64,000 nucleotides of DNA from Strigamia acuminata (lineage: Eukaryota; Arthropoda; Chilopoda; Geophilomorpha; Linotaeniidae): the NCBI GenBank assembly GCA_949358305.1, contig OX442323.1:8432001-8496000 (forward strand). The letters are read 5' to 3'. A model generated the notes under the pieces. The model made no database searches, was not told where the DNA came from, and saw nothing but the letters and a program-made list of their open reading frames with translations. Both the position numbers and the translations under genes were made by a program. This document shows, in pieces, positions 5,374 through 55,521 of the stretch. Within the stretch, counting starts at the first letter, position 1. The number at the start of each line of letters is the position of its first letter.

Positions 5374-6300
5374 ATGTTCGTCTTCCTAGCCCTCATTCTT
5401 CTGCCACTACTCGCCCTAGCCAAGGACTGTCCACCCCCGGTGCCCGCCAACTGCGAGTGCGGCGAAGAAGTCCATCACGGAGCCGTCGTCAAAGTCGTGC
5501 GATGCGCCGCGCTCAAGTCCGCCCAACTGAGCGCCCTACGCGAACTCCCGCCTCAAACCGAGCTGCTCGCGGTGAAAGACAGCGACCTTGAAGACGTAGA
5601 TGGACAAGGATTGAAATTCCACTCGCCTTCGCTCCGCATTTTGCACCTGGAACGCAACAACATCCACCAATTCGACCTCAAACTCTTCCTGTGCGCTCAC
5701 CCGAACCTCGAACGACTTTATTTGAGCGGAAACACGTTGATTTGGTTCACCATCGACCCCGGGTGCTCGGACAAGCTCAGGGTGCTCAGTTTGAAGCAGA
5801 ATCACGTGCACTTCTTGCCCAATGCGACCCTGAACGCGTTGGCGGAAATGGGCAACCTCGAGGTGGATTTGAGCGACAACACCTTCTCGTGCGATTGTAA
5901 TTTAGTGCCCACTGTGAAATGGTTGCAGGAGCAGAGCAGGGGTGTGCGTGGGGGGGCGTCGATCGTCGATCCGGATGTTTACACGTGCAGGGACGCGTTT
6001 CCCGAAGGATTTATGGGGCGGCGACTGGTGGATTTGGACGCGGATCTACTCAGATGTCAAGGCGATGCGATGGAGGAACAGGAGGATATGGAGTTTTATA
6101 ATTATCATTCGCACGTTTTGTATTTTATGTTGGGGTTTATGGGGTTTGTCGCGCTCGTGTTGGCGATTTTTACGATGTATTTGCATTTTCCGAATATCGC
6201 CGCGACGTTGAAGAGTTTGAGGGACGATGCGCATGCGCCGCGTGTTAGTAACCAGAAACGGTATACGTCGTTGGATAATGAGACAGAGACACAGGCGTAG
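5374..6300 (+). CDS. Single-pass leucine-rich-repeat membrane protein
   Basis: This is an intronless 308-aa frame. Residues 1-16 (MFVFLALILLPLLALA) are a signal peptide, followed by a Cys-rich N-cap (CPPPVPANCECG). LRRs with LxxLxLxxN cores run from ~85 to ~175 (ILHLERNNI, RLYLSGNTL, VLSLKQNHV, VDLSDNTF). An LRR C-terminal cap follows (CDCN plus two later cysteines, CRDAF and LLRCQ). A hydrophobic membrane helix (HVLYFMLGFMGFVALVLAIF) at ~245-265 precedes a short cytoplasmic tail of ~40 residues. The layout predicts a type I cell-surface protein with a small LRR ectodomain, probably in adhesion or receptor signalling. The exact family member cannot be named. Third-codon GC is much higher than in neighbouring genes. 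It converges with HDAC8 (stop codons 123 bp apart). Confidence 0.85.
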   Translation: MFVFLALILLPLLALAKDCPPPVPANCECGEEVHHGAVVKVVRCAALKSAQLSALRELPPQTELLAVKDSDLEDVDGQGLKFHSPSLRILHLERNNIHQFDLKLFLCAHPNLERLYLSGNTLIWFTIDPGCSDKLRVLSLKQNHVHFLPNATLNALAEMGNLEVDLSDNTFSCDCNLVPTVKWLQEQSRGVRGGASIVDPDVYTCRDAFPEGFMGRRLVDLDADLLRCQGDAMEEQEDMEFYNYHSHVLYFMLGFMGFVALVLAIFTMYLHFPNIAATLKSLRDDAHAPRVSNQKRYTSLDNETETQA

Positions 6301-16500: not shown

Positions 16501-19500
16501 AAATAAATAAAAATAAACTGAAAAATAAACTGAAAAATCGGAAGAAAAAATCGGGGAAAAAATCGAGAAAAAAAATCGAAAAAAAATCGAAAAAAAATCA
16601 AAAAAAAAAATCGAGAGAAAATCGGGGAAAAAAATCGGGAGAAAAAATCGGAGGAAAAAATCGGAGAAAAAAATCGGAAAAAAAAATCGGGGGAAAAAAT
16701 CGGGAAAGAAAATCGGAGGAAAAAATCGGGAAAAAAAATCGGAGAAAAAAATCGAGGAAAAAAATCGGGGAAAAAATCGGGAAAGAAAATCGTAGAAAAA
16801 AATCGGGAAAAAAAATCGGAGAAAAAAATGGAGGAAAAAAATCGGGAAAAAAAATGGAGGGAAAAAAATAGAGGAAAAAATCGGAGAAAATATCGAGGGA
16901 AAAAATCGGAGGAAAAAATAGAAGGAAAAAATCGGGAAAAAAACTCGGAAAAAAAAATCGGAAGAAAAAATCGAGGAAAAAATCGGGAGAAAAAATCGGG
17001 GAAAAAAATCGGAGGAAAAAATCGGGAAAAAATCATGGAAAAAAATCGAGGAAAAAAATCGGAGGAAAAAATCGGAAAAAAAATTGAGAGAAAATCGGGA
17101 AAAAAAATCGGGAAAAAATCGGGCAAAAAAATCGAGGAAAAAAATCGGAAAAAAAAATCGAAAAAAAAATCGAAAAAAAAAATCAAGAGAAAATCGGGGA
17201 AAAAAATCGGGAGAAAAAATCGGAGGAAAAAATCGGAAAAAAAATCGAGAGAAAATCGGGGAAAAAAATCGGGAAAAAAACTCGAAAAAAAAAATCGGAT
17301 GAAAGAATCGGGAAAAAAAATCGAGGGAAAAAAATGGAGGAAAAAATCGGAGAAAATATCGAGGGAAAAAATCGGAGGAAAAAATAGAAGGAAAAAATCG
17401 GGAAAAAAAATCGGAAGAAAGAATCGGGGAAAAAATCGGGGAAAAAATCGGGGGAAAAAAATCGGGAAAAAAATCGGGAAAAAATCGGGCAAAAAAATCG
17501 AGGAAAAAAATCGGAAAAAAAAATCGAAAAAAAAATCGAAAAAAAAAATCAAGAGAAAATCGGGGAAAAAAATCGGGAGAAAAAATCGGAGGAAAAAATC
17601 GGAAAAAAAATCAAAGAGAAAATCGGGGAAATAAATCGGGAAAAAAACTCGAAAAAAAAAATCGGATGAAAGAATCGGAGAAAAAATCGGGGAAAAAATC
17701 GGGAGAAAAAATCGGGAAAGAAAATCGGAGGAAAAAATCGGGAAAAAAAATCGGAGAAAAAAATCGAAGAAAAAAATCGAGGAAAAAATCGGGAAAGAAA
17801 ATCGTAGAAAAAAATCGGGAAAAAATCGGAGAAAAAAATCGAGGAAAAAAATCGGAGGAAAAAATCAAAAAAAAAATCAAGAGAAAATCGGGGAAAAAAA
17901 TCGGGAAAAAAACGCGAAAAAAAAAATCGGAAGAAAGAATCGGGGAAAAAATCGGGGAAAAAATCGGGAGAAAAAATCGGGGGAAAAAATCGGGGGAAAA
18001 AATCGGGAAAAAAAATCGGAGGAAAAAATCGGAAGAAAGAATCGGGGAAAAAATCGGGGAAAAAATCGGGGGAAAAAAATCGGGAAAAAAATCGGGAAAA
18101 AATCGGGCAAAAAAATCGAGGAAAAAAATCGGAAAAAAAAATCGAAAAAAAAATCGAAAAAAAAAATCAAGAGAAAATCGGGGAAAAAAATCGGGAGAAA
18201 AAATCGGAGGAAAAAATCGGAAAAAAAATCAAAGAGAAAATCGGAGAAAAAAATCGGGAAAAAAAATCGTAGAAAAAAATCGGGAAAAAATCGGAGAAAA
18301 AAATCGAGGAAAAAAATCGGAGGAAAAAATCAAAAAAAAAATCAAGAGAAAATCGGGGAAAAAAATCGGGAAAGAAAATCGTAGAAAAAAATCGAGAAAA
18401 AAAATCGGAGAAAAAAATCGGAGAAAAAAATCGGGAAAAAAAATCGGGAAAAAAAATCGGGGGAAAAAATCGGGAAAGAAAATCGGAGGAAAAAATCGGA
18501 AAAAAAAATCGGAGAAAAAAATCGAGAAAAAAAATCGGAGAAAAAAATCGAGGAAAAAAATCGGAAAAAAAAATCGAGGGAAAAAAATGGAGGAAAAAAT
18601 CGGAGAAAATATCGAGGGAAAAAATCGGGGAAAAAAATCGGAGGAAAAAATCGGGAAAAAATCATGGAAAAAAATCGAGAAAAAAAATCGGAGGAAAAAA
18701 TCGGAAAAAAAATCGAGAGAAAATCGGGGAAAAAAATTGGGAAAAAAACTCGGAAAAAAAAATCGGAAGAAAGAATTGGGGAAAAAATCGGGGAAAAAAT
18801 CGGGGGAAAAAAATCGGGAAAAAAATCGGGAAAAAATCGGGCAAAAAAACCGAGGAAAAAAATCGGAAAAAAAAATCGAAAAAAAAATCGAAAAAAAAAA
18901 TTGAGAGAAAATCGGGGAAAAAAATCGGGAGAAAAAATCGGAGGAAAAAATCGGAGAAAAAAATCGGGAAAAAAAATCGGGGGAAAAAATCGGGAAAGAA
19001 AATCGGAGGAAAAAATCGGGAAAAAAAATCGAAGAAAAAAATCGAGGAAAAAATCGGGGAAAAAATCGGGAAAGAAAATCGTAGAAAAAAATCGGAAAAA
19101 AAAATCGGAGAAAAAAATCGAGGAAAATATCGAGGGAAAAAATCGGAGGAAAAAATAGAAGGAAAAAATCGAGAAAAAAACTCGAAAAAAAAAATCGGAA
19201 GAAAAAATCGGGGAAAAAATCGGGGGAAAAAATCGGGGAAAAAAATCGGAGGAAAAAATCGGGAAAAAATCGGGGAAAAAAATCGATAAAAAAAATCGGA
19301 GGAAAAAATCGGAAAAAAAATCGAGAGAAAATCGGGGAAAAAAATCGGGAAAAAAACTCGGAAAAAAAAATCGGATGAAAGAATCGGGGAAAAAATCGAG
19401 GAAAAAATCGGGAGAAAAAATCGGGAAAGAAAATCGGAGAAAAAAATCGGGAAAAAAAATCGGAGAAAAAAATCGAGGAAAAAAATCGGGGAAAAAATCG

Positions 19501-39933: not shown

Positions 39934-41067
39934 TAAATTAATTTCATATTAATTTTGGAGTTTGTAAAGATTATAGAAAAAATAAAATTATGATCACACA
40001 TTAACTGTTATTTGTCAAATAATATTTCGTCGCTGCATCAAACTCAGTATATTTTGGAAGAATCAAACCCCAAATGATATTCGAAAAACAAGGAGAAATA
40101 ATCAGTCTGAAACAAGTGCTTAAAATTCAAAGATGCTTTGAACCAAAAAACAAGAAAATGGAATCATTTCATGTAATTTCTCTTGTGAAATAAAGATTTA
40201 TTTAGGTATTTAAACTGTATTAATACAATAAAATAAAAATTGATAACAAAAACCATGCCAATGTGGCCATTTTAAAAAACATGTAGGCAATAATGCATGG
40301 GTATTTCGTCCACACTGTACAATTTCACTATCGATTAGAGTCGCCCTCGATTATAAGTTACGGCAAAAAGTTGATTTTGCCAAAGAAATACGGTAACATG
40401 ATGTAAACAACTCAAAAGTAAATAAAGATGTAAACAATCCCAAACACTGCCACAAGTCGCACAGTACAGCAAAACACTCAAAATCGCAATGCGCATATGC
40501 AAATGGGAAATTCTGCGGTTCCCTCCGCACATGCTAATTTTTCTTATTCGTTAATCCAACCATGAACCAAGGATAACACATATCCACATGTTCAATGCGT
40601 TTTGTCACCGATGGCGCCACATAATACATAGCCGCACTGTATTCTGGGATGAGAACAGGTAACAAACACACTTAGTTGGCATTGGCAAGCAACGCGTGAC
40701 ACGTGATTGCTGTCATCCAATCAGCGCACAAAATATCGAATCAATAGATATGACCATGCTATCCTTGGTTCACAGAGGCGTAGGAAGACATCAATGGGCC
40801 CTTTTGCTAAGATTTTCATCCTCTAAACACCTAAAAACCTAAAAAAAATAAAATAGAAAGATGTCCCCATTCAACCTCCATGGGCCCCTTTACTGAAAAA
40901 TGTTATTTCAAATTTCCGTTTTGTTTACAATAAAAATAAAAATAAAAGAACAGAAATAAAAACATGCGTGCAGCAAATTATAGTTTATGGATTTGTCTGA
41001 TTTATATGTTGATTCATTCATACATATCTTTGCATATAGGTTTAAGATGATTATGCAGTGTGATGAC
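39934..41067. other. 3' flank of copy B up to the Gypsy insertion
   Basis: This is the paralogue of 35856-37794 lacking the solo LTR. No gene was seen. Confidence 0.6.
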
Positions 41068-41071
41068 AACA

Positions 41072-42233
41072 TGTGGTGACCTCAAATATTCCTATTTGAG
41101 TGCGCACCATATTTCCAAATTGTCTTATAAATATATTCAACAAGCTTATATGTTTTGTTTCAATGTAAATTGAAATAAAACATACATTAATAAAATATAA
41201 AACAAGACACAATATTGCCCAAATAATATTGTGTTTTGCAGCAAGTTTTGGCCCAGCAACAGCGTCAACCAATCGCGCTGCAGCATGCATTGCTTTGATG
41301 ATGCTGCTAGGCGTGTGCCTGGGCGGAGCATCCCTTCCCCTCGCGCGTGCCCGGCTCAATTGTTGCACACGACCCGAAGGCGGCTGTGTGTGATCTTTGT
41401 GCAACTCGTCATCTGCGCAGCTTTTCTGAGCAGATTTAGAAGTGAGCCAAACGGTTTTGGCCCACTCTTCCCGCATTCTTGATTCTGCTTCCAAACCATT
41501 CACATCTGTGTCAAACTTATGCCAAACCCTGCTAAGTGTGATCTGTGATATCTGGAAGAGTTGAGATTCATTGCTGGTCCGTGCCAACTGTACGGAATAG
41601 CGCCCTTCTGCTTGAATTACTACGCGTAATTTAAGCCATTTCTGTGTGTGAATTGACATTGAGCTTGCTCTGTCAATTTGTAGTTCTTTGTGTCGAGCTT
41701 GCTCCACAAAGAAAACTGTGTGAAACTAACATCGAGTTCACTCTGTTGGTTTGAAGGCTTTGTGTTGAGTTTAACTCCACAAAGCGAGTTGTGTAAAGAC
41801 CGATTGTTACGTCGAGCTTGCTCCGTAATAATCGAACTGCTGTGTGCGAGACGTGTTCTCGTGTCGAGCGTGCTCCACGAGGATTTTAGTACATTTTAGC
41901 AAAGTATTTTAGCGTCGAGTTTACTCCGCTAAAATCCCGCGCTCACACGACGCCGTCGACGCCATTTTGGAGCCAACGGACAACTGTGAGTGTCCAAGTA
42001 CAAAGAGAAGCCAGATCGACCCAGTCATTACATTATTATTATTATTTTCCCTTTGCATATATCGAGTGTATTTAGAACGATTAAAACAATCTAATTTTTC
42101 CTTTTACTCTCCGTGTAAAAATCATTCCCCTAGACAACCATTTAGCCACAGAGTAGAAGTCCTGTACGGCATCTCACCGACGATTGCTTGTTAAATTTGT
42201 ATAATTTAATAAGTAAAAACCCGGATCGCCGCA
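41072..42233 (+). repeat. 5' LTR
   Basis: 1162 bp, TG...CA. TATAAATA is at 41126-41133, with AATAAA at 41174 and 41189. This places a short R near 41156-41215 and a long (~1 kb) U5 that becomes the RNA leader. It contains the hairpin array at 41651-41935. Offset to the 3' LTR is 11840 bp. Confidence 0.95.
41651..41935 (+). other. Array of seven phased hairpins in the LTR leader
   Basis: Hairpins: 41651-41678, 41685-41712, 41723-41752, 41757-41785, 41801-41834, 41856-41883, 41906-41935. Each has self-complementary arms of 8-11 bp with unrelated sequence, such as AATTGACA/TGTCAATT, CGATTGTTACG/CGTAATAATCG and ATTTTAGCG/CGCTAAAAT. The arms enclose T[C/T]-GAG[C/T]-NN-[G/A]CTC. The fourth pair of the inner stem covaries (C-G in hairpins 1, 2, 5, 6; T-A in 3, 4, 7). 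Hairpins 3, 5 and 6 contain G-T wobble pairs in the arms. The predicted RNA fold is outer stem, 2-nt left bulge, 4-bp GAGC/GCUC stem and a UU loop (CUUG-type tetraloop). Confidence 0.85.
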
Positions 42234-42235
42234 CT

Positions 42236-42253
42236 TGGGGGCCCGTCCGGGAT
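42236..42253 (+). other. Primer-binding site, tRNA-Pro type
   Basis: TGGGGGCCCGTCCGGGAT begins two nt after the LTR. It matches the known proline-tRNA PBS with one mismatch. Confidence 0.75.
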
Positions 42254-42325
42254 TGTTTTGATTGTTAAAATCCGATTTTTGCAAAAAGATCCTTTATTTC
42301 CATTGTTCTTTTTCAATTTGACAAA

Positions 42326-45220
42326 ATGGCGACGCCAATGCAAATTGTAAAACGACAGCGAGGTCGACCAAGCACTCAGAAACGAGCAGCGACGGTTTTG
42401 CCGGCTCTCGAGCCTGAAATGCTTATGGAGAAAATTATTTCCGAGGAAATAACACCAGTTCCAGATCCGAAACAACTTAAGGATGCTGAAAATGAAGTTG
42501 CTAGAGCATTAAGCGCTTCAAGTGCGAGTTCTAACGACCAAGAACTCCCGCCACTTCCACTGGAGGAAGTGGAAAATACGTTACGTGAAATGGAAAGTGA
42601 ATCGTCTCACGAATCACCTCCTCGCATGACCATGTTGGATGCTTTGAGAAATCAAGCACGCCAAGATGGCGCCCAAATAACGGACGACATGACGGTGGAA
42701 GAGATTCATCGCGCCATGATACGACTTCACACTGACCGAGCCGTTTCAAATTTAAAATTTGAAATGGAACGGAAAGAAGCAGAGCTTCAACAACAAAAAG
42801 CTGAGGTTGAGCTTCAACACATGGAACTCAATCGACAAAATGAGGAATTTCTAGCCCAAAAAGCTAGAGAATACCGATTAAAAGGTGAAGTGGAAGATCT
42901 TTCTAAAATGAACGCTAGAAATGAACTTTCAATTCACTCACACCAAGAGGCGCGAAGACAGCTCGAGCTTACCAAAAGTAAGCTGGAGCAGAAAAATAAA
43001 GAACTGATTGATTTGGCAGACCACTACCAACGCAATCATAATCAACTAGTGAGATATGCTGCTGAATTAGACACACGTGCTAAAACACAGCGTACTCGCG
43101 AAAGCAAAATAGCTAAGCGTGAAGACGAGATTTTCCACTCGCTGGATCAACCCAGTACGAGCGGACAAGTCAAGTCTAGCGACCCTGCTAAGCGATTACA
43201 ACCAGAAAAATCGCAAAATGAAATAAATGAGAATGAAATTCTCCGAGCTGATTTGTTGCGCGCTCAAGAAGAGCTTGCAGAAATGAAAGATCGTTTGCAA
43301 GCAAGAAATTATACTGACCAATTGGTGCAACCAGAAATGGCTGCGCCAACTGTTCCTATTTTGACTCCCGAAACAATAACAATTTCTGTTGTTTCAGAGT
43401 TAAGTAGCCAATCTGGATTATCGAGTGATGACGACCAACGTTCGCGTCGCCGCCATCGCTCAAAAAGAAAACGTCCTTCAGATTCTGAGGAACGGAGAGC
43501 TGATCGCAATCCGCTCCCTGGTAATCGAAACCCTATTTTTCACAATAGTGACCGACTGTTGGGAATGGTAGACGATCGAAACAGACGACATGAAACAGGT
43601 ATTCACGTTGCCCGAACGATACCACTGGCTCAGCAGCAAGATTCGTCGAAAAGAAGTCGACGAGACACGAATCCAGCACGCGAACCACCCGACGGACATG
43701 AAAGCCCGCCAGGTGGGGGACAGTATCGGAGAAATCCACCAGATGGAGGGAATCCAGACGGACATGGAGATGGACCGCCTGGAGGTGGACGTCGACCGCC
43801 AGATGATGACGGCGACCCACCCGACCCACCTGAAACGCCACATTTCAACACGCCTTCGAATTCACAATCTGATTCAAGGTCGGATTCTGATGCGAATGCG
43901 CAACAAGAACGCGATAATCGACATCGATCTCATCGACGTCGACATCGAGGCCACTCTTCTCGGCGTAATACTCATTATTACACTGCTGAGGAAATTGATC
44001 GATTATTAGCTGATCGTCGATCTTCCGATCGATCTGACGCTACTGCCGATAATGCTGACATTGCATTACGACAAAAAATTGCACAATACACTGCCAACAA
44101 CTGGACTCACGATCTAGTTGATGAAAGAACTATTAGATGGGATCACATCAAACCCGCTTTATTCGACGGAGAATGGGAAGCTGGATCCACTCTTTTAGAT
44201 GAAGTTTTACGAATTTCAAGGTTGAATGGCATTGCATGTCACACTGCTTTGAAAAGAGTAGTACCAAAAGCTCTTATAGACCGAGCTGAAAAATGGTTTT
44301 ATTCAAAACAATTTCAAAATTGGAATCACTTTGTAGAGGAATTCATGACTGAATATGGAGAGTCAAGTGAAGACTTACTACAAATGTGGGATAATCTTTC
44401 TCAAAATAAAGGCGAAAGTCTTCGCTCTTATTTAAGAAGGACTGAGGATTTATTGGTCACTCTCCCTTATACGATGGGAGACGCAGCCATTGATCGTCAA
44501 TTCCGTCGTGGATTGACAGATTATTCGAAGAATGTTCTACTTTCAGTACGAGCACCTTATCCGGGTGGTTTCGCTGAATTAGCCAAATTTATGCGAGCTA
44601 ACCAGATAAGAATTGATGAAAATTATAAAGCTTATCTACCAGCTGATGAAAAAGTTGCGTACGCTAAGCGACAGCAAAGGAGAAAAGAATTGGCAAAAGA
44701 CACACGTTTTGCTAATACCCCTCTTTTGCAACCCCCAAAACGAGGAGATTTTTTGGCAGAGACTGCTAAGGAATCTAGAAAGGGATCGGATGGGAAAAAT
44801 CCACATCCAACCCCTAAAGCTCACTTAGCCGAAGTGACAGATATGGAAGCTGCTTCTGAACCAGAGAAATCTGACTCGGAACCAGAAAGCGAGGCTGCAG
44901 CTGCTTTATTAGCCCGTAATAACGCAGTAGCTCGAAAATTTGGACCAAAAATGGCGCCTAAAAACGTTACTTTTGGTTCACCAAAGACAGACGCGCTCAG
45001 TAGATCGAAGTCGCCGACCCCGAAAAAGGACGAAGCCAAACGCTCAAGTTCGCCTTCGCCAAAAGTCGCAAAATCACCTGCTACTGACCCGTGTAACATT
45101 TGCAAAAAATTAGGACATTGGGCTAAAGAATGTCCTGATAGGAAAACGAGCAAAGACAAGATTATTGAGGAGTTCGAAAAATCGATGAAATCAATCGGCG
45201 AACTGCTAAAAAACTTGTAA
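42326..45220 (+). CDS. gag: Gag polyprotein of the Gypsy element (964 aa)
   Basis: The N-terminal third is a long charged coiled coil (~residues 135-265). It is followed by a low-complexity, Arg/Asp/Pro/Gly-rich stretch (~430-545). The retrotransposon Gag (capsid-like) domain spans ~580-760 (DHIKPALFDGEWEAGS, WFYSKQFQNWNHFVEEF, LRSYLRRTEDLL). A single CCHC zinc knuckle, CNICKKLGHWAKEC, lies at residues 923-936. Gag packages the element RNA into particles. At 964 aa it is long for the family, owing to the N-terminal coiled coil. The stop (45218-45220) is only two codons beyond a slippery heptamer. Confidence 0.9.
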   Translation: MATPMQIVKRQRGRPSTQKRAATVLPALEPEMLMEKIISEEITPVPDPKQLKDAENEVARALSASSASSNDQELPPLPLEEVENTLREMESESSHESPPRMTMLDALRNQARQDGAQITDDMTVEEIHRAMIRLHTDRAVSNLKFEMERKEAELQQQKAEVELQHMELNRQNEEFLAQKAREYRLKGEVEDLSKMNARNELSIHSHQEARRQLELTKSKLEQKNKELIDLADHYQRNHNQLVRYAAELDTRAKTQRTRESKIAKREDEIFHSLDQPSTSGQVKSSDPAKRLQPEKSQNEINENEILRADLLRAQEELAEMKDRLQARNYTDQLVQPEMAAPTVPILTPETITISVVSELSSQSGLSSDDDQRSRRRHRSKRKRPSDSEERRADRNPLPGNRNPIFHNSDRLLGMVDDRNRRHETGIHVARTIPLAQQQDSSKRSRRDTNPAREPPDGHESPPGGGQYRRNPPDGGNPDGHGDGPPGGGRRPPDDDGDPPDPPETPHFNTPSNSQSDSRSDSDANAQQERDNRHRSHRRRHRGHSSRRNTHYYTAEEIDRLLADRRSSDRSDATADNADIALRQKIAQYTANNWTHDLVDERTIRWDHIKPALFDGEWEAGSTLLDEVLRISRLNGIACHTALKRVVPKALIDRAEKWFYSKQFQNWNHFVEEFMTEYGESSEDLLQMWDNLSQNKGESLRSYLRRTEDLLVTLPYTMGDAAIDRQFRRGLTDYSKNVLLSVRAPYPGGFAELAKFMRANQIRIDENYKAYLPADEKVAYAKRQQRRKELAKDTRFANTPLLQPPKRGDFLAETAKESRKGSDGKNPHPTPKAHLAEVTDMEAASEPEKSDSEPESEAAAALLARNNAVARKFGPKMAPKNVTFGSPKTDALSRSKSPTPKKDEAKRSSSPSPKVAKSPATDPCNICKKLGHWAKECPDRKTSKDKIIEEFEKSMKSIGELLKNL
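45208..45214 (+). promoter_or_regulatory. Putative -1 ribosomal frameshift site A AAA AAC
   Basis: The heptamer is in register with gag codons CTA AAA AAC. Pol is open in the -1 frame through this point and beyond, with no ATG near its beginning. Gag terminates two codons later. Confidence 0.8.
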
Positions 45221-45240
45221 GCGCGCATCCCGACGGTCTA

Positions 45241-48200
45241 GTGGATGCGACGCCTACCGCCTCGGAAGATGAACTAACACCATCTCAAATTTTAGATGAT
45301 TTTTTAAATAATCAGATTAAATTAGAATTAGAAAATAATTTAGTATTTCCAAAAATTGATGTTTCCAGTTTAAGGCTTGTGCTGCAAAATGAAAACATCA
45401 CTGAGGAATTTTTTAAAGAAAAAGTTCAACAAATAAAAGTTGATTGGGAATCTAAAATAAAAGATGCTGTTACTTTACTAGATGAAAAAACTAGGCCAAC
45501 ACCTGAAATCATTGAAAGGTCAGATAAAATTGATTTACCTGGTCTTGATGAATGTATTGAAAAATTAATGGCTACAACGCTAGTCACTAATGATTTATTG
45601 GACGAATTACCATTGGATCCGCCGATAGAAATTAAGCCACCGCGACGTTTTAAATGCAAGTACGCGGACATACCAAACAGCAATGATTTGCCGACGATTC
45701 GATTGCAGACGGCAAACGGTATGATAACAGGGATGTTAGACTCTGGAGCTAATCGAAGCTTCATGGCCTACTCCGTAGTAATTTCGCTGAAACTGGAAGA
45801 TGAAATTCGACCAATTGGACCGGATGTGAGAGTTACGACTGCTTCAGAAGATGTAGTCCCTGAAGGAACTCTCCTACTTTCTTTTGCGTGGACTCACGGG
45901 ATGTTAAGTCATCCATTTATAATTTTAAGAAATAAATATCCTATTGTTCTATTAGGATGTGATTTCATGAATCGACTCAACATACAACCAAATCCTAAGA
46001 CAATGTCTTGGAATTTTGTCAAGTCTTTGAAAGAAGATTTACCTTTTGTTCCTCAAGCGATTCTTGATCGTTATCAAGAGTTCCTTGATCCACCCGAAGA
46101 AATCATGAGACGCGACTTTATTAAAGCAAATCACATGAAAGCTGGCTCTGCCACTGCGTGTCAAGCTAAAGTTGCAAATGAAGAAAATATAGTACAAAGA
46201 CTTGTTAGCGACGCTAATTTGTCAATGGAAAATAATTTAATGCTTGAAAAGGTATTAAAGAAACATGAAAAGATTTTATCACGCCGACCAGGAAGAACAC
46301 ACCTCGTTAGGCATGAAATTAAACTGGACACTAAAATTCCTATTAGAGTTCCGTTTAAAAGCGTAAATCCACAGAAACGTGAAATTATCCGTCAGATTTG
46401 TCAAGATATGCTGGATAATGGATACGTTGAACAAGCCACTGAAGACTATGGAATGCGAATAGTTCTAGTGATGCGTCCGGATTGTGATCCGAGACTCTGC
46501 ATTGATTTTAGACCACTCAATGCACATACATTATACGACCCTCCTCAAATGCCGAGCATTGAGGAAATCTTGCGAGAACTCGGAAGGTTTGAATGGGTCA
46601 CAACAATAGATTTGTCAAAAGGCTATTGGCAGATAGAGGTTCATCCGAACGACCGTGCGAAAACTGCGTTTTGGAGCCCTTTGGGTCGACTACAATTTCG
46701 AGTCATGCCCTTTGGCCTCGTAAATGCGCCGTCAACTTTCCAAAAGTTGATAGAAAAAATTTTGGGGGACGCCTATCGAAAATTCGCATGGGCATACCTC
46801 GATGATATAATTATTATATCTAAAAATTTTGAAGAACACATGATTCATCTGGAAGAAATTCTGAGTAAACTTGAAAATGCAAATCTTCATGTTCATCCAG
46901 AAAAATCGAAATTTGGCAGAAAAGAATTAACTTTTCTTGGTTACAAGTTAAGTGTTCAAGGAGTTAGTGTCGACCCTAAAAAAGTCGCCGCCATTAAAGA
47001 AATGCCAGCTCCTTCAAATTTGAAAGAGTTGCAAAGATTTTTGGGAATGGTGAACTTTTTTCACCGATTACTTAAAAATCTTGCAGTAATGACAGAACCT
47101 CTACGTCCTTTACTCAAAAAGGATGTGGAATTTATTTGGTCAGAAATTCATCAAGAAGCTTTTGATCAAATAAAAGATGCTTTAACGAATGCAGAAACAA
47201 TGGCCATGCCCGATTTGACAGAACCATTCATTGTGCATACTGACGCTAGTCGAAAAGGATTAGGCGCCGCGCTTATGCAAATGAGGGAAATCGATGATCA
47301 AAATATCGAAGTGCCTTGTGTTTATGCCAGCAGAAGTTTGCAACCTGCTGAGATAAATTACAGCGCCACAGAATTGGAGTGCCTAGCGGTAATCTGGGCA
47401 TTACGTAAATTTCGACATTATTTGGAATTTACTACATTCATAGTTAGGACTGACCATCAAGCACTAAAATGGTTGATGCAGTTAGACGAACCTGCCGGAA
47501 GGTTGGCACGTTGGCAAATGGAGCTGATGCGCTATTCTTTCGAAATACAATACATTAAAGGTCCACTAAATGTTTTAGCGGATGCTTTATCGAGATCACC
47601 GATTGATAAACCGGAAAATCCTGAAGATGATGGAGATAATGATGAATTATTATCTTACTGTCCATCACCTCAACGAAATTGGAAAATGGGAAAATTTCAT
47701 GAACTTCCTGTCTCCACACTGGAGGAAAAGGAAGATCATGAATTCGTCAACTATTGGACTAAAATCTATGACCCCTCTGAGGAATCAGATGACGTCATAA
47801 GAGCGCAAATTTCAAGGAAATTCCAAGTTCCTTCGTCAAATGTTTTAATAAAAGCATTTGTCGCCAAAATTGTAGAGCGTCTTGATTGTGAACCCCCCAC
47901 AAGGGAAGACATAATCAAGGCCCAAAAAGAAGATAAAGTTTGCCAATTGATGCGTAATTTTTTAAATTGTAATCAATTTCCGCCCGACGTCACAACGCGA
48001 CTCCAGAGGAAACAATATAGAAAACACGCAACCACCTTCTTAATCGAAGATGACTTATTAATGCAATTTCATCCCACAATGTCTGATGAATTGGGGGAGG
48101 ATGGGAGAGCACTCAAAGTTTTTGTACCTCAGACATTGAAGTATAAAATTATTTGGCTAATGCATGGCCACCCACTTTCTGGCCACCCAGGAATTGCAAG

Positions 48201-49689
48201 GACTCTTTATCGAGCACGCCGAATTTATACCTGGAAAGGCATGAAATCGGACATTACGAGATTCATTCGACATTGCGAGCGTTGTCAAGCTTGCAAACCT
48301 CGAACAAAAGGACAAATTGAAGCAGCGCAAATGGGTCCTTACAGCCCATTTGACTGTCTAAGTGTTGATTTGACCGGCCCGAAACCTCGGACGCGCAAAA
48401 ACAACACACATATTTTAGTCATACTTGACGTGGCAACTCATTGGCCAGAATTATATCCAATGTGTAACCCCACTGCTGGAAAAGTAGCAAATTGCATTTA
48501 TCACCTTTCCATGAGCATGGGATTCCCTCGTAAAATTATTTCTGACAACGGCCCGCAATTTCGTGCCCAGGTCTTTAAAAAATTTTGTGAAAAGTTCAAG
48601 ATGGTTCCAACACCAACTTCAACGTATCACCCACAAGCTAACCCGGTTGAAAGGGTTAACCGTGACATCAAATATTTGGTTGCAATTTATTCATCTGTTC
48701 ATTCCAAATGGGACGAATATTTGCGTGAATTTGCATTTAGTTTGAGAACTACGGTGACGAGAGGAAGAGACTTCTCTCCCGCATTTCTTAACTTTTTTCG
48801 CGAACTCAGAGTACCTTGGGATCCAAGAATACCTGAAGGAATTTTGGTCGTAGATCCAAAAAACCCACATTTATACGTGCAAAAATTAGAAGCCGTTATC
48901 GCCGAAACATATCAGCACATGATGTCACACGTGTTAGATTTGCGTAGACGAGTTAATCTTAAAAAAGAAGGTGAGAAGTTCTCCAATTTTAAATTAAACG
49001 ATTTAGTTTGGAGAGATTCTCATGTTTTGTCGAGCGCTGCCCGCGGCATTGCAGCTGGCATCGCTGATAAAAGAACAGGACCATATGTAATAACCAAAGT
49101 ATTACAGGGAGGATCCGTAGAATTGAGAAAGCTAGAAAATAACGAAATATTTCCAGCTGTCCATTCGTCTGAATTAACTCCGTATTTCCCGAGTTTCGAT
49201 CAGGAAGTATGGTTAGAAGGCGAACAAGTCGGTCAAAAGACTGAAAATATAATTAATACGTTAGATGACGATGAATTAAAGAAAATACCTGTCGATAATT
49301 CATCCAAACCACAAATGGAGTCAGACCTCGTGAATAACGACGTTGAGCTTCGTGACAGTTTCAAAAAACTTGAAATTGCTAAAAAATTAAAAAAAAAGGT
49401 GTTTTTAGAAAAGAAACAAAAAACATCTGAAATAAAAGACTCATCTGACTCAGTCTCCGATGACAATGAAGACGGCGATTTAAATACAATAAATCCCTCG
49501 CCGACAAAGAGATATAATCTTCGGACTCGTAAACCGAGAGGAAAAAACAACATGTGTCTTCTCCCCTCGCTAACCTCGAGATCCAGGGATCAGCCGTATG
49601 ACGTAAGGAGCAATTCCTCAAGCCATACTCAAACCAATCAAACAGTAAGATTGGATGACGTCACTAACAGCGACGTTACCCAAACGTAA
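45241..49689 (+). CDS. pol: Pol polyprotein: protease, RT, RNase H, integrase (~1482+ aa)
   Basis: The frame is open upstream into gag and is probably made as Gag-Pol by -1 frameshifting; the first codon here is GTG, not a true start. Domains in residues from 45241 are as follows. The aspartic protease has MLDSGANRSF at ~165. Reverse transcriptase has PFGLVNAPSTFQ and the catalytic YLDD at 519-522. RNase H contains VHTDASRKGLGAAL and VRTDHQALKW. Integrase has an HHCC finger (HGHPLSGHPGIARTLY, HCERCQAC) and a catalytic triad at D1043 (SVDLTGP), D1102 (SDNGPQF) and E1137 (NPVERVNR), with 34 residues between the second Asp and the Glu. The C-terminal ~200 residues are charged. No internal stop is present. 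Confidence 0.95.
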   Translation: MDATPTASEDELTPSQILDDFLNNQIKLELENNLVFPKIDVSSLRLVLQNENITEEFFKEKVQQIKVDWESKIKDAVTLLDEKTRPTPEIIERSDKIDLPGLDECIEKLMATTLVTNDLLDELPLDPPIEIKPPRRFKCKYADIPNSNDLPTIRLQTANGMITGMLDSGANRSFMAYSVVISLKLEDEIRPIGPDVRVTTASEDVVPEGTLLLSFAWTHGMLSHPFIILRNKYPIVLLGCDFMNRLNIQPNPKTMSWNFVKSLKEDLPFVPQAILDRYQEFLDPPEEIMRRDFIKANHMKAGSATACQAKVANEENIVQRLVSDANLSMENNLMLEKVLKKHEKILSRRPGRTHLVRHEIKLDTKIPIRVPFKSVNPQKREIIRQICQDMLDNGYVEQATEDYGMRIVLVMRPDCDPRLCIDFRPLNAHTLYDPPQMPSIEEILRELGRFEWVTTIDLSKGYWQIEVHPNDRAKTAFWSPLGRLQFRVMPFGLVNAPSTFQKLIEKILGDAYRKFAWAYLDDIIIISKNFEEHMIHLEEILSKLENANLHVHPEKSKFGRKELTFLGYKLSVQGVSVDPKKVAAIKEMPAPSNLKELQRFLGMVNFFHRLLKNLAVMTEPLRPLLKKDVEFIWSEIHQEAFDQIKDALTNAETMAMPDLTEPFIVHTDASRKGLGAALMQMREIDDQNIEVPCVYASRSLQPAEINYSATELECLAVIWALRKFRHYLEFTTFIVRTDHQALKWLMQLDEPAGRLARWQMELMRYSFEIQYIKGPLNVLADALSRSPIDKPENPEDDGDNDELLSYCPSPQRNWKMGKFHELPVSTLEEKEDHEFVNYWTKIYDPSEESDDVIRAQISRKFQVPSSNVLIKAFVAKIVERLDCEPPTREDIIKAQKEDKVCQLMRNFLNCNQFPPDVTTRLQRKQYRKHATTFLIEDDLLMQFHPTMSDELGEDGRALKVFVPQTLKYKIIWLMHGHPLSGHPGIARTLYRARRIYTWKGMKSDITRFIRHCERCQACKPRTKGQIEAAQMGPYSPFDCLSVDLTGPKPRTRKNNTHILVILDVATHWPELYPMCNPTAGKVANCIYHLSMSMGFPRKIISDNGPQFRAQVFKKFCEKFKMVPTPTSTYHPQANPVERVNRDIKYLVAIYSSVHSKWDEYLREFAFSLRTTVTRGRDFSPAFLNFFRELRVPWDPRIPEGILVVDPKNPHLYVQKLEAVIAETYQHMMSHVLDLRRRVNLKKEGEKFSNFKLNDLVWRDSHVLSSAARGIAAGIADKRTGPYVITKVLQGGSVELRKLENNEIFPAVHSSELTPYFPSFDQEVWLEGEQVGQKTENIINTLDDDELKKIPVDNSSKPQMESDLVNNDVELRDSFKKLEIAKKLKKKVFLEKKQKTSEIKDSSDSVSDDNEDGDLNTINPSPTKRYNLRTRKPRGKNNMCLLPSLTSRSRDQPYDVRSNSSSHTQTNQTVRLDDVTNSDVTQT

Positions 49690-49897
49690 CTTCCGGTATT
49701 TGAACTGATCACTTCGCGTCTGAGTTCACTTCGATCTCACACGTGTGCTAAGTGCTCATCTCTGAAAAACCAAAAGCGAAACAACTGGATAAATTCTCCC
49801 GAATCTTCAATTGTAAGTAGTTTTTTCTTTGGAATTTTCCAAAGAAAAACTAATAAATTAATTTTCGTTTTTCTTTCCATTTGGATTAGTCGTTCAA

Positions 49898-52737
49898 ATG
49901 GAAGGAGAGGAACCGAAGGAAGGAAGCGAAGCCGGCGCCAACAGCCTCGAATTAGAAACAAATTCGACGCTGCTTGGTTCCGCAAATACTTCGAATACAT
50001 CCGTGGATGTCACCGAAGAGTCCGCCGAAGCGTCCGCCGAAGCTCAAGCCGCTCTGGCCGACGCTGCTGCCCGTTTGCCAGTCACGCCGCCCCGACCACA
50101 ACTTCGAGGAGGCCTATTCGCCGATCCAAACGGCGAAACTCGTGCACAGAGACACGACCGGGTAAATAAATTAAAATAAAATTACCTTTCAGTCATGAAA
50201 AGTAATTAAAAGTGCATTTTCACTCCGAAAAAGCGAAAAGTTCGTTGGTAACGCCTTCGCAAGAAGACGCCGCCATTATTATCATCAGATGGCGCTGTGT
50301 CTCGTTTTTGAGGCGTTGCTACGGTAACGCTCCAAACACTGAAACATAGCCGTCGGAAACAACGTTTTTTTTTTACAATTTTTCAAATATTTTGAAAGAT
50401 TTAATGAATCTAAACTGTCGAATGAAATCTCACCCGTGATTTTATTCACTGAAAATTCGGAAATAATTATTTTACACGAAAAAATGGATTTTAATTATTT
50501 CTTCAAATATTTTACAGATCATCCAGCTTCGGGAAACACATCTCGAATTGCATCCCGACGTTCCAACCGCTCCTGGTGTCTGGCGACACGCATTGCCGCC
50601 AGAGATCATAAAGTCGAAGGGACGACTGACGTTTTGGGCGGCCCGACACAAGTTCTCCAAGGCCTTAAACAAGCGATGGGGAACGAAGTTTCGGATCGCC
50701 TATTTAATCGATGGATTCGGTCATCGCGACGCCCTCGAGTGGGCAATGAAACGCGATACCTTCGGACCACTGCGAAACGTGTTGCTTGACTTCGCCTTCA
50801 CAGTGATCGCTCAAGAAACGCGAGACCATCGCCGCTATTTCAACGCTCCTGCGTGGGAGCGTCGACAGATTTTGGAGGACATTTTCCAACGCTTGGACCA
50901 AACCAAAGCCGAGGTTGTACGCCTCTACAACGAATCTTTCCGTGTAACAACGGACGGAAAGAAACGTTGGGTGCCGACATGCCAGTCGGAAATGCATCAA
51001 CTAGCCATGGGCGGATGTTTCCATGCTGATTTCGTGCCAAACCCGTATCCAGAGCCTGAGCCCCGGATACAGGTCGCTTCCACCATCCACGTGGTGCCAC
51101 CGCGCTCCACGTCGAGGTCACGATCATCGAGGTCGCCCTACAGTGGTCGTCGCTCCTCCCCAACTCAGTCGTCGGGGGAAGGCGCCATTGGGGGATTACC
51201 TCAACTTGAAAAGACTCGTCATCGCTCACATCACCGACGCGAGTTGACGCCGCCAAAAAGACATTCGAAGTCCGTGTCGAGACCCACATCCCGAAGCCGA
51301 CCTCGAGTGCAATCGCGCCAATCTTCCACGAGGAGTTCACTCTCGTCGCGTGAAGAAAAATCCAGCGCTTCACAGCTTAGCGCTCCCTCCTCCGGCCGGA
51401 TTGACTGGTCGGACGAGATAGCAAAAGAAGATCGACGCATCGCCGCATTGCAAGCCGGTCATGGAGACGTCAACACCTCCTTGCCGTTCGCTTGCCGTCC
51501 AGTCACCAGCGACATGCGACCAGACCTATCGGTGCCCGTGCCACAAGTGACATCGGTCATTCGTTTTGAGGGATACGTCTCTCAAGAACCATTTCCCGCA
51601 CAGGAGTGCGCTGATCTCTGGAGGCGATTCTCATCGTTTCCCGAGACAGCACAAGCAATGTACCTCGCGCATCTGGACGAATACCAACTCGCTCAGATAC
51701 GCGAAGGTGAGAAAGAGTGGCAATGGCTTGCGCGAGAACTTGCGTCGTGCAAGTCCGACAAGCAACTGCAACGGACGCTGCAGAGGATGAACAGGAAGTT
51801 GTTGGAGGGACTTCTTCGAATCCTGTTCCAAGGAGTCTTTCCCGACCCACAGATTGCTCTGGCGGCCGCCACTCGATTGTGGACCGTGCCGTTAGGGCTT
51901 CCACGAGCCTTGCTGGACGATTGGGAGTCAGTTCGCCCCGACCCTCCAACGATGCTCGCCGAATTGACGCAACAAGCCGAGGCGACTGGCGAAACTCCGG
52001 CTGGATCCGCCATTCGACTACGGCAGGAATGGGCTACGCTGAAACAGCGACGCGCAACGGAACGAGCTACCGCCCGTCCCGCTGGCGCACCACCGTCATC
52101 CGCAGCTCCACTCCACGCTGCCATCACGGCAACGTCGAGTGTTTCCCGTGCAACCGAGGCGCCGAGTTGCAACATCTCGTCTCCAATGGAGTGGCTCGAC
52201 AGCGACGATCGCGAGTTCGTCGTGCCTGTGGCCTGCGGTGCCAGACCAAAGACGCGCACCCCGGCTTTGCGCAGATCCAGATCCCTCTCGATCTGCAAGA
52301 AGTCGCCACCACCGCCGCCTCCTCCAAAGGATTCGCCACCGAGAGATAGGGGATCGAGTATAGCCACCCACCTCACCGCCTATCAACGTTTGCGCTCTTT
52401 ATACGCTTTTTGCTACATAACGAGCGCAACGAAAACAATTCTCCAGAACAGCGAGGATTTATGCAACCGAGTCCTCGCGTGGCTGGAAAACCACATCAAG
52501 GAACAGCAGCCGTGGATCCTGCATCAACGCCTGGTGTTCGCTCGAATTACGCCTCAAGACCCGCAGGAGTATTTCGAGATGGGTTTTGGACGAAGGGATG
52601 GTGTGGACCGCATCAAGCAAGTGTGGCTCCACATCAACCCTGGCTTCCGGTCAGGACCAAACGCCGGCCGACCTTTGTGCACCGTCACCGAGCACAAAGA
52701 TCCAAACGATCATTCGACGGACATGTTGCCTAAATAA
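49898..52737 (+). CDS. Third ORF of the Gypsy element, spliced, ~827 aa, unknown
   Basis: Coding exons 49898-50161 and 50518-52737 join in phase 0 (donor CGG|GTAAAT, acceptor TTTTACAG). Upstream, a 77-nt intron 49813-49889 (ATT|GTAAGTAG...GGATTAG) lies in the leader just before the ATG. The product begins with an acidic/Ala-rich segment (MEGEEPKEGSEAGANSLELE). It continues with a globular region (RLTFWAARHKFSKALNKRWG, EWAMKRDTFGPLRNVLLDF), an Arg/Ser-rich middle (STSRSRSSRSPYSGRRSS), another helical region and a polyproline run. It has no signal peptide, membrane helix, zinc knuckle or envelope features. GC content and codon use are clearly higher than in gag/pol, suggesting separate origin. 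I cannot assign a function. Confidence 0.7.
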
Positions 52738-52897
52738 TTAGGGAACATACCCGTCCATTAAAAATAATTACTTTTTTATTTTTTATATTGTAATAAAAAT
52801 GAATAAATATATATCCTGTTCCATTTTACTTTGAAACCTTGTGTATTTATTCATATCCTTACTTGTCTCTTTTTGGAAAAGAATAAGATTCTTTCTT

Positions 52898-52911
52898 AAA
52901 AGGGGGGGAAG
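52898..52911 (+). other. Polypurine tract
   Basis: AAAAGGGGGGGAAG directly abuts the 3' LTR and would prime plus-strand synthesis. Confidence 0.9.
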
Positions 52912-54073
52912 TGTGGTGACCTCAAATATTCCTATTTGAGTGCGCACCATATTTCCAAATTGTCTTATAAATATATTCAACAAGCTTATATGTTTTGTTT
53001 CAATGTAAATTGAAATAAAACATACATTAATAAAATATAAAACAAGACACAATATTGCCCAAATAATATTGTGTTTTGCAGCAAGTTTTGGCCCAGCAAC
53101 AGCGTCAACCAATCGCGCTGCAGCATGCATTGCTTTGATGATGCTGCTAGGCGTGTGCCTGGGCGGAGCATCCCTTCCCCTCGCGCGTGCCCGGCTCAAT
53201 TGTTGCACACGACCCGAAGGCGGCTGTGTGTGATCTTTGTGCAACTCGTCATCTGCGCAGCTTTTCTGAGCAGATTTAGAAGTGAGCCAAACGGTTTTGG
53301 CCCACTCTTCCCGCATTCTTGATTCTGCTTCCAAACCATTCACATCTGTGTCAAACTTATGCCAAACCCTGCTAAGTGTGATCTGTGATATCTGGAAGAG
53401 TTGAGATTCATTGCTGGTCCGTGCCAACTGTACGGAATAGCGCCCTTCTGCTTGAATTACTACGCGTAATTTAAGCCATTTCTGTGTGTGAATTGACATT
53501 GAGCTTGCTCTGTCAATTTGTAGTTCTTTGTGTCGAGCTTGCTCCACAAAGAAAACTGTGTGAAACTAACATCGAGTTCACTCTGTTGGTTTGAAGGCTT
53601 TGTGTTGAGTTTAACTCCACAAAGCGAGTTGTGTAAAGACCGATTGTTACGTCGAGCTTGCTCCGTAATAATCGAACTGCTGTGTGCGAGACGTGTTCTC
53701 GTGTCGAGCGTGCTCCACGAGGATTTTAGTACATTTTAGCAAAGTATTTTAGCGTCGAGTTTACTCCGCTAAAATCCCGCGCTCACACGACGCCGTCGAC
53801 GCCATTTTGGAGCCAACGGACAACTGTGAGTGTCCAAGTACAAAGAGAAGCCAGATCGACCCAGTCATTACATTATTATTATTATTTTCCCTTTGCATAT
53901 ATCGAGTGTATTTAGAACGATTAAAACAATCTAATTTTTCCTTTTACTCTCCGTGTAAAAATCATTCCCCTAGACAACCATTTAGCCACAGAGTAGAAGT
54001 CCTGTACGGCATCTCACCGACGATTGCTTGTTAAATTTGTATAATTTAATAAGTAAAAACCCGGATCGCCGCA
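52912..54073 (+). repeat. 3' LTR
   Basis: 1162 bp, collinear with the 5' LTR at +11840. The hairpin array is at 53491-53775. The target duplication AACA follows at 54074-54077. Confidence 0.95.
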
Positions 54074-54410
54074 AACACTAGTTAGTTGTAAGCGTTGTAG
54101 TGCTATTAATGACCACCATTGCACGAATTTGAATTCACGTTCAAAGAAGAGCTTCACTTCCGACACGAAAAAGTTAAATAATTCTTTTATTTTCGAAAGA
54201 TTACGCAAAAAGATCCTCTTGTAATTTTCCCACATCCCACGCTAAGGATGTCAGCACGCTCATTTTATGCATACCTACTTTAAATAACAAAACATAATTT
54301 GAATTTTTCCACATGAAACTCGAATAAATTAATCAAAACAATAAAACATTTCGTATATAAACCACTCTGCTTGCAGCCTCAGCCTCAGTCACGGTACTTC
54401 TATCCTAACC

Positions 54411-55521
54411 ATGAAATCCTGCTTTGTAGTTCTCTTGGTCGTTGTCTGCGTTGCAGTAGCAGAAGCAGTAAGCATAACCTCTTTTTATTTTGTTCTCAAC
54501 ATACACATTGTTGAAAACTTGGTTTCGAAGTGTGATGAATATGTTTTATAATTGATAAGCAATCTGATTTATTTGTATGTAGCAAAACTGCTTCAAGGAT
54601 GGTGAAGTGGAAAAGGTGACAAAATAATATTTGATAAATTTTGCTCGATGTGAAAACTTATTTGATTTCTAATACAGCACAAAAAGGAGCACATGGCTAA
54701 AATGTTTGCCCCATTGATTAAGAAATGCAAGGAAGAAAAGAAAGATGTGGTAAATGCAGACATTTTTTTATAAAACCCGTTTCGGTAGATGTAATATTTA
54801 AAAAAATCTTATTTATTATTAACAGAATGATCCTGATTGTGGAAAATACATTCACGAGAAGGTAAACCTTGATCAGTGGTATGTTTTACTGGAAAATCTA
54901 ATTGACAGTTTTGAATTAATAACAGAAACAAGCTGCGAAGAAAGAGTGTGAACCTGAAGCTGGTAAAGTAAGTTGCACATAAATGTTTAGTTGTATTGAA
55001 ATAATCGTAATCAACAAATGAAAACAGGACAAGATGAAACTGTGGACGTGTATTTCCAAGAAAATAGAAATAGTAAGTCAATTTGTTTGCAATATCAATT
55101 AATGTGTACACAACTGGTTTTATATAAAATAGGTATACAATAAAGAGGACTTCGACCTTGAAGCCAACAAGAAACGAATGTTTGGAATAGTATTACCTGA
55201 CGTAAGTTTGATTTTTAGAGAAAATAAACAAAAAAATTAAATTTGTTCAATTTCAACAGAAAAAGAAGACAGTTGAAGATGCAATCGCTCCCTGTAAGGA
55301 GGATGGCTTTGTAAGTGGGATTAAAATAAGAAAAATAACCAAAATTAATTTTATTATGATTATTATAACAGAAAGCCATGATGTGTGCAATGAAAAAATT
55401 GGCAGAAGTAAGTTTAAAATTTTTCAAAGTAAACAGCAATTAATAAAATGTTTTTTTGAAGGTTTGTCCCGACATAAAAGCAATGATGAAGAAATGTCAC
55501 GGAGATGCTGAAGAAATGTAA
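54411..55521 (+). CDS. Secreted mini-exon protein, copy C (166 aa)
   Basis: Exons: 54411-54467, 54583-54615, 54678-54749, 54826-54861, 54926-54967, 55029-55073, 55133-55201, 55260-55310, 55372-55407, 55462-55521. All are symmetric with phase-0 introns. The signal peptide is MKSCFVVLLVVVCVAVAEA. The core contains QNCFKDGEVEK, PLIKKCKEEKKDV, NDPDCGKYIHEK, KKECEPEAGK, WTCISKKIEI, MMCAMKKLAE and a compact C-terminus CPDIKAMMKKCHGDAEEM (9 cysteines in the mature part). It lacks the Lys/Gly tail of A and B. TATATAA (54354) and TCAGTC (A at 54387) form an intact core promoter. The 5' end of this unit is now separated from copy B by the Gypsy insertion. Confidence 0.85.

Follow-up and report, generated by a model that had tools for sequence, protein, structure and literature searches.

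A tandem array of seven small hairpins lies in the long terminal repeat (LTR) of a Ty3/Gypsy retrotransposon of Strigamia acuminata, and the hairpins are almost certainly under selection as RNA structures. This claim of the preliminary description is strongly supported by shuffled partners, slid partners, and pairs that switch on both sides. The core common to the hairpins resembles those of HIV TAR and 7SK, and we tentatively read the array as a set of docking sites for an arginine-rich protein.

The two LTRs of the element are 1,162 bp each and 100% identical by blastn within the window (the whole 64,000-nucleotide stretch of DNA analyzed here), and AACA flanks both outer LTR ends. The element is a Ty3/Gypsy retrotransposon: gag is followed by reverse transcriptase (RT), RNase H, and integrase, and LTRs and a primer site are present. 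No protease family was reported for the element by the Pfam scan. Its main features are as follows.

41072..42233, + strand: 5′ LTR (TGTGG...CGCA), from blastn within the window
42236..42253, + strand: primer binding site, two bases 3′ of the 5′ LTR, which we take to be of the tRNA-Pro type
42326..45220, + strand: gag open reading frame (ORF), with Retrotrans_gag and zinc knuckle matches
45241..49689, + strand: pol ORF, with RT, RNase H, and integrase family matches
50548..52737, + strand: ORF3, without known domain, kept across the clade, second candidate partner of the array
52912..54073, + strand: 3′ LTR, from blastn within the window, with the same seven hairpins at 53490-53775

When the 237.5-Mb genome was searched, 85 of the 90 RT matches scored (two partial), among 3989 candidates, were 97-100% identical, and the element family appears to have been very active recently. 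Elsewhere in the window, a minus-strand ORF at 81-1562 matches THAP and TNP-like RNase H domains and represents a transposase-type gene, and long lysine-rich (or Phe-rich) repeat ORFs occupy both strands at 16473-18904; the latter are of low complexity and probably not genes. The LRR gene at 5374 gave no homolog at E 0.001.

The hairpins of this copy, all located in the 5′ LTR, are listed below.

41610..41636, + strand: H0, a separate 11-bp hairpin without the TAR-like core
41650..41679, + strand: H1, bulge TT, core at 41659, 12 contiguous pairs
41684..41713, + strand: H2, bulge TC, core at 41693, 9 contiguous pairs
41723..41752, + strand: H3, bulge TC, core at 41732, 9 contiguous pairs
41757..41785, + strand: H4, bulge TT, 5-nt loop region, core at 41765, 8 contiguous pairs
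41801..41834, + strand: H5, bulge TC, core at 41812, 11 contiguous pairs
41855..41884, + strand: H6, bulge TC, core at 41864, 9 contiguous pairs
41906..41935, + strand: H7, bulge TC, core at 41915, 9 contiguous pairs

All seven hairpins of the preliminary description are present (41650-41935) and are repeated in the 3′ LTR. In each of H1-H7 the 5′ side carries a bulge of two nt, T[C/T], with GAG-loop-CTC above it, and in this copy the form is 5′-RYR-U[C/U]-GAG-YNNR-CUC-YRY-3′ on a longer co-varying stem, the three arm positions adjoining the bulge on the 5′ side being purine-pyrimidine-purine in seven of seven. The loop pattern that had been claimed for every hairpin fits six of them; H4 has one additional base, giving a 5-nt loop region (TTTAA). 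The arms had been described as mostly unrelated, and this statement needs correction: H1H2 aligns with H3H4 at the matching place of other copies and is therefore a tandem duplicate of it, and H2 and H4 have CTTTGTG in common. Folding of 41640-41950, a check suggested at the outset, gave a minimum-energy structure of the plus strand that holds all seven hairpins (-103.6 kcal/mol, z = -4.2), and the minus-strand fold of the array region reached -88.5 kcal/mol (z = -4.0). When the minus-strand forms were folded singly, those of H1, H3, H5, and H6 were weaker than the plus forms, those of H2 and H4 were equal, and that of H7 was slightly stronger. Over the 544 nt of the predicted R region, pair probabilities averaged 0.895-0.984 per hairpin, the weakest single pair (0.353) being in H2. 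The strict core pattern had no match on either strand of the window beyond the two LTRs. A covariance model (E up to 1) gave 14 matches in the window, all within the two LTRs, as is expected by construction of a model built from the seven hairpins themselves. No Rfam family matched 40000-54500 at E up to 1.

Arrays of this kind are repeated across the genome, and all genome counts of array copies are lower bounds. A relaxed search that accepted any two bulge bases and at least six pairs found at least two hairpins in 59 of 98 fetched loci, some of which overlap in place; five hairpins were found in 32, seven in 20, and other numbers in 7. In a DNA search with 40 of 269 candidates scored, 26 matched the whole query and 14 matched positions 77-311 only. 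The core pattern occurred at 721 places genome-wide, compared to 270 for a reversed control. Twenty-one loci with the core pattern (of 30 returned) were scanned with the covariance model; 11 had matches, which always came in groups of two or more, whereas the other 10 had none. The covariance model (E up to 5) detected no array in 3,001 bases each of two relatives, L099 (RT 74%) and L100 (RT 78%). Other hairpins are present in both just after the proposed transcription start, and, judged by eye, hairpins occupy a place about collinear with H0; a structured leader may be a general feature of the clade. Several of the hairpins of L099 and L100 appear by eye to have a T × C mismatch beside a G-C pair. 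All 67 stretches of viral contigs with two cores at the array spacing were scanned by the model, which yielded 8 matches with E no higher than 5, the best at E 0.12. A possible viral array in L122 consisted of two neighboring weak matches only (E 2.5 and 3.3) and was attributed to chance.

Covariation was assessed both within the seven hairpins and among copies of the array. Within the seven, 98.8% of 85 cells are paired, compared to 74.8% (sd 3.3) with shuffled partners, and none of 500 partner shuffles reached the observed pairing percentage, the number of two-sided cells, or the covariation score. Eight of 13 pairs are changed on both sides, a number reached in 14 of the 500 shuffles, and the number of pair types was reached in 52. 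For the comparison among copies we aligned 31 distinct arrays (H3-H7) drawn from 58 loci, which include the window's own and some that overlap in place; one locus with two hairpins only (L032) and the 39 of 98 loci without a match were left out. Pairing over the 31 arrays was 99.1% of 1853 cells, a count that leaves out the loop pair, and fell to 38.5-49.2% when the partners were slid by 1-3 columns; two-sided cells numbered 42, versus 1-4 with slid partners. Five pairs switch between Watson-Crick types: in H3, 41728/41747 (A-T in 19 arrays, G-C in 12), 41726/41749 (C-G in 20, T-A in 11), and the loop pair 41737/41740 (T-A in 19, C-G in 11, T-G in 1); in H7, 41914/41927 (G-C in 24, A-T in 7) and 41911/41930 (A-T in 21, G-C in 10). 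On a tree built without the stem columns each of these pairs changed 2-3 times, the changes on the two sides being equal in four of the five pairs and 3 and 2 in the loop pair; the tree derives from a short segment, and these counts could be too high if copies have exchanged sequence. The 11th, outermost pair of H5 is kept in just 10 of the 31 arrays; it was left out of the 1853 cells and of the following G-T and A-C counts. G-T cells number 94, at 17 pair positions, and A-C cells number 8, at 8 positions, with 8 other mismatches. Because G-U is allowed only in plus-strand RNA, this excess of G-T over A-C favors RNA; the preliminary description had left the choice between RNA and cruciform DNA open, and of the two RNA fits better and the cruciform is disfavored. 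Damaged copies also occur: L094 lacks part of H6, L095 has mismatches in H7, and L096 and L097 have several.

The region ahead of gag has the properties of a leader. No ATG occurs in the 805 nt before gag (41521-42325), compared to a mean of 12.8 in shuffles, none of which reached zero in 2000 trials; the opposite strand of the same 805 nt has 13 ATGs versus 10.0 in shuffles. The gag ATG is the first ATG after 41519, and the leaders ahead of the gag ATG in L099 and L100 are free of ATG for ∼910 and ∼810 nt, respectively. Such an ATG-free stretch is as expected of a leader scanned by ribosomes, which places the start of transcription after 41519; it speaks for scanning rather than for the IRES named among the possible roles in the preliminary description. 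An ATG does occur inside the array in 5 of 39 array-bearing loci (L032, L041, L089, L090, and L091), which represent fewer than five places because some are one place or near twins. Two short features delimit the proposed R region.

41558..41571, + strand: GAGTTGAGATTCAT block, collinear in L100, with a proposed transcription start at ∼41570
42080..42085, + strand: ATTAAA, proposed poly(A) signal ending R

The GAGTTGAGATTCAT block is presumably Inr-like. Its 14 nt are identical and collinear in L100 (E 0.035, weak by itself), and the best match near the corresponding place agreed in 10-14 of 14 letters in 39 of 39 loci. L099 and L100 have AATAAA at about the place of the ATTAAA, followed by a CCCCTAGA block that is common to all three elements. 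In this LTR, AATAAA is confined to 41174 and 41189, two sites that precede the proposed start and follow a TATA at 41126, and the placement of R thus leans on ATTAAA. These features suggest a start near 41570 and an R region that extends to ∼42100, with the array at about +80 to +370. The array very likely lies within the transcribed leader and probably within R; if in R, it would be present near both ends of the RNA. The earlier placement in the genomic RNA leader agrees with the ATG-free stretch, with the revision that the array is probably in R. The start had been put ∼500 nt before the array, perhaps on the basis of the TATA at 41126, and this distance is probably too long; the ATG-free leader and GAGTTGAGATTCAT point to one of probably ∼80 nt. 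A promoter at that TATA with a short R was considered and set aside as less likely, as it would add five upstream ATGs (41163 to 41519). Directly after the array, GTGAGT at 41986 is the only donor-like site of the GTRAG/GTATGT type in 41567-42700, and in the local fold prediction it base-pairs with CTCACA upstream of it. The putative exon from 41570 to this site, which would offer a plain splice route to ORF3, contains no ATG.

HIV TAR is located in R near the transcript start. The positions of the array hairpins that vary least were compared with those that matter in TAR and in 7SK. The first bulge T shows no variation across the 31 arrays (one gap). Mean pairwise difference among these arrays was 0.017 for GAG, 0.009 for CTC, 0.083 for the arms, 0.136 for the spacers, 0.077 for the loop NN, and 0.389 for the second bulge base. 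GAG and CTC are invariant in seven of seven hairpins of this copy. Among 48 distinct hairpins, T is first in the bulge and a purine lies directly below it on the 5′ side in all 48, and the bulge is TC or TT in 47 and TA in one; GAG/CTC and at least six pairs were demanded for this count, which is hence no test of GAG/CTC, and array copies and duplicated hairpins have common ancestry. In HIV TAR, U23 joins A27-U38 in a triple that lies between G26-C39 and G28-C37; U23C and U23A abolish Tat binding, as does swapping G26-C39 or G28-C37, a 2-nt bulge, natural in HIV-2 TAR, works, and G21 is a third guanine read by Tat, according to the account in PMC11885821. In the arginine sandwich described in PMC6189040, a bulge pyrimidine serves as the cap and the paired base before the bulge as the base, and 7SK has the same secondary structure, with a triple of U40 and A43-U66. 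The array hairpins likewise have a pyrimidine bulge that starts with U and spans at least 2 nt, with G-C, A-U, and G-C pairs above it. The invariant positions of the array match those essential for TAR recognition by Tat, and the freer second bulge base matches the kind of change that appears to be tolerated there; its C/T variation could be partly CpG decay. HIV TAR proper is not matched, because a YNNR-type loop replaces the hexaloop and a pyrimidine occupies the place of G21 in seven of seven; the pair below the bulge is G-C in five of the seven. The likeness to TAR was noticed after the data had been seen, and by our own estimate four such core features would coincide by chance about 1 time in 256 for an arbitrary core. 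On this analogy, the chances that the hairpin core forms an arginine fork appear evenly balanced.

Two products of the element are candidate ligands, ORF3 (listed above) and the following segment of Gag.

43439..43474, + strand: arginine-rich stretch RSRRRHRSKRKR of Gag, residues 372-383, candidate ligand

The Gag N-terminus (42326-42400) also has a basic motif, KRQRGRPSTQKR, which we take to be AT-hook-like; the corresponding motifs are KRPRGRPAKRR in L099 and KRPRGRPAKKR in L100. The open frame of ORF3 extends over 50467-52737 (756 aa), with many scattered RS and SR pairs in its middle and no 12-residue run having seven or more Arg/Lys. Its first 60 residues contain no in-frame ATG and an acceptor-like site, TTTTACAG, lies upstream at 50510-50517, so that a spliced mRNA is likely and ORF3 is probably expressed by splicing. 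Comparison of ORF3 with Pfam (E up to 5), with PDB, and with outside proteins (E 0.001; 7,996 candidates scored) gave no match. A search of this genome with its first 251 residues gave 151 matches (150 of 572 candidates scored); among the matches listed, at least 84, counting that of the window itself, are 90-100% identical over 242 or more residues, and at least 47 are 33-38% identical, many with open frames near 760 residues. Three elements with RT 74-78%, distinct from the L099 and L100 scanned for the array, have an ORF3 match downstream.

Among the roles listed in the preliminary description, protein binding is the candidate that fits best, and packaging keeps a place. The reading we tentatively favor, and rate somewhat short of an even chance, is that the array is a tandem set of arginine forks that docks an arginine-rich protein, most likely one encoded by the element, and marks the genomic RNA. 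Five to seven tandem hairpins would lie near the 5′ end of the transcript and, given their probable location in R, near its 3′ end as well; a U·A-U triple between two G-C pairs (an arginine fork or sandwich) is predicted in each core, and side chains of the protein would dock there. The ligand would most likely be the arginine-rich stretch of Gag or the ORF3 product. Bound in several molecules along the array, it would single out unspliced genomic RNA for export from the nucleus, for packaging, or for both, in the manner of Rev, Rex, and Rec at their response elements. The specific proposal that an element-encoded ligand marks the genomic RNA is held with greater reserve. An element with both spliced and unspliced RNA must export the latter, and a multivalent docking array is therefore favored. 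Of the features of a response element, structured LTR RNA is present here, its presence on unspliced RNA is suggested by the ATG-free leader, and the Gag basic stretch and ORF3 are candidates for the arginine-rich export protein. Counting against the docking array, it was not found in L099 and L100 although both share a similar basic Gag N-terminus.

Other explanations were weighed against the same observations. Chance hairpins, or a by-product of duplication without selection, could draw on the tandem duplication of H3H4 as H1H2, but the five pairs that change on both sides, each 2-3 times on a tree built without stem columns, and the collapse of pairing with slid partners render this explanation practically negligible. 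A function at the level of DNA, with palindromic binding sites or cruciforms in the LTR, has a precedent in Drosophila gypsy, which carries an insulator of tandem binding sites in its 5′ UTR, and the minus strand folds nearly as significantly as the plus strand. We nevertheless regard it as very improbable given that arm sequence is not conserved, that G-T cells outnumber A-C cells 94 to 8, and that H1, H3, H5, and H6 fold less stably in their minus-strand forms.

Three further alternatives accept the RNA structure and differ in what reads it. The hairpins might be bound by a host protein involved in restricting or translating the element, or they might only regulate scanning, as the scanning ribosomes implied by the ATG-free leader would allow; this is rather unlikely, since the constraint at the bulge U and GAG/CTC beyond pairing exceeds the needs of a plain barrier, and an element would hardly keep sites for a restrictor. 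The array could instead be a packaging or dimerization signal for the Gag zinc knuckle or a general basic surface, without an arginine fork, in which case the core would serve loop or bulge recognition of another kind. The array lies ahead of the primer site and of gag, a zinc knuckle is present in Gag, and the NC domain of Ty3 Gag is required to package genomic RNA (PMC4974528); we still consider a signal of this type unlikely, because the bulge U and GAG/CTC are the most constrained positions and the loop NN is about as variable as the arms. Finally, in a transactivation of the Tat/TAR type, nascent hairpins would enhance elongation by recruiting a factor or by displacing HEXIM from 7SK. The identity of the core with TAR and 7SK ASM3 and the location, roughly 80 to 370 nt downstream of the proposed start, are in its favor, but it appears quite improbable: the loops are not TAR-like, and G-C lies below the bulge in five of seven hairpins, a change that in 7SK abolishes HEXIM binding and weakens Tat binding five-fold (PMC6189040). 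No Tat-like protein was found in the element by Pfam scans.

A broader extension of the docking reading, which we put forward as speculative and on balance improbable, is that a Ty3/Gypsy element independently evolved a multivalent platform of the TAR/7SK type in R, read by its own arginine-rich protein; control of the Tat/TAR and Rev/RRE kind would then not be confined to retroviruses, and the core may let nascent RNA compete with host 7SK for the proteins that bind it. The means by which Ty3/Gypsy elements tag genomic RNA for export and packaging are poorly defined. According to a review, the packaging determinants of Ty1 and Ty3 lack a precise definition (PMC4974528), and for Cer1, in which the protein is known, contacts between CERV and RNA were left for future tests in the account cited here (PMC10309623). 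The array hairpin is compact, repeated, and sequence-defined and comes with a structural hypothesis, and it can thus be tested directly with short RNAs and peptides.

Several known systems resemble the array in part. Response elements of retroviruses are also structured RNAs in the LTR and are bound by a protein of the element for export: the arginine-rich Rex of HTLV-1 acts on an RxRE in U3/R, the RxRE of HTLV-2 lies in R/U5 (PMC3434621), and Rec of HERV-K acts on the RcRE, located in U3 (PMC11379458). The RxRE is a 255-nt structure with four stem loops (PMC3434621), whereas the array consists of uniform hairpins and its response protein is only a candidate. In the LTR retrotransposon Cer1 of C. 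elegans the spliced CERV protein is needed for export of genomic RNA (PMC10309623); CERV is an extra spliced protein, and the element described here has an extra 3′ ORF without an early ATG. For ORF3, no outside homolog was found at E 0.001 among the 7,996 candidates scored. The absence of a described element with this arrangement, claimed earlier, is not contradicted, as we found no prior description of a TAR-like hairpin array in an LTR retrotransposon in titles and abstract openings of mostly non-subscription literature; the single hairpin, in contrast, has close counterparts in HIV TAR and 7SK. The array differs from HIV TAR in its five to seven tandem copies, YNNR loop, pyrimidine at the place of G21, and other lower stem, and in belonging to a Ty3/Gypsy element, for which no Tat is known. 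It shares with HIV-1 and HIV-2 TAR a hairpin near the transcript start with a U-first pyrimidine bulge followed by G-C, A-U, and G-C, and with HIV-2 TAR the 2-nt bulge (PMC11885821). 7SK is a host snRNA with its motifs in one stem, whereas the array has separate hairpins with mostly G-C below the bulge; stem-loop 1 of 7SK nevertheless has a 2-nt bulge (U40U41) and a U·A-U triple, as predicted for the array, and several of its motifs are read by one basic protein stretch (PMC6189040). An arginine fork in the array, if confirmed, would represent convergence with lentiviral TAR and host 7SK.
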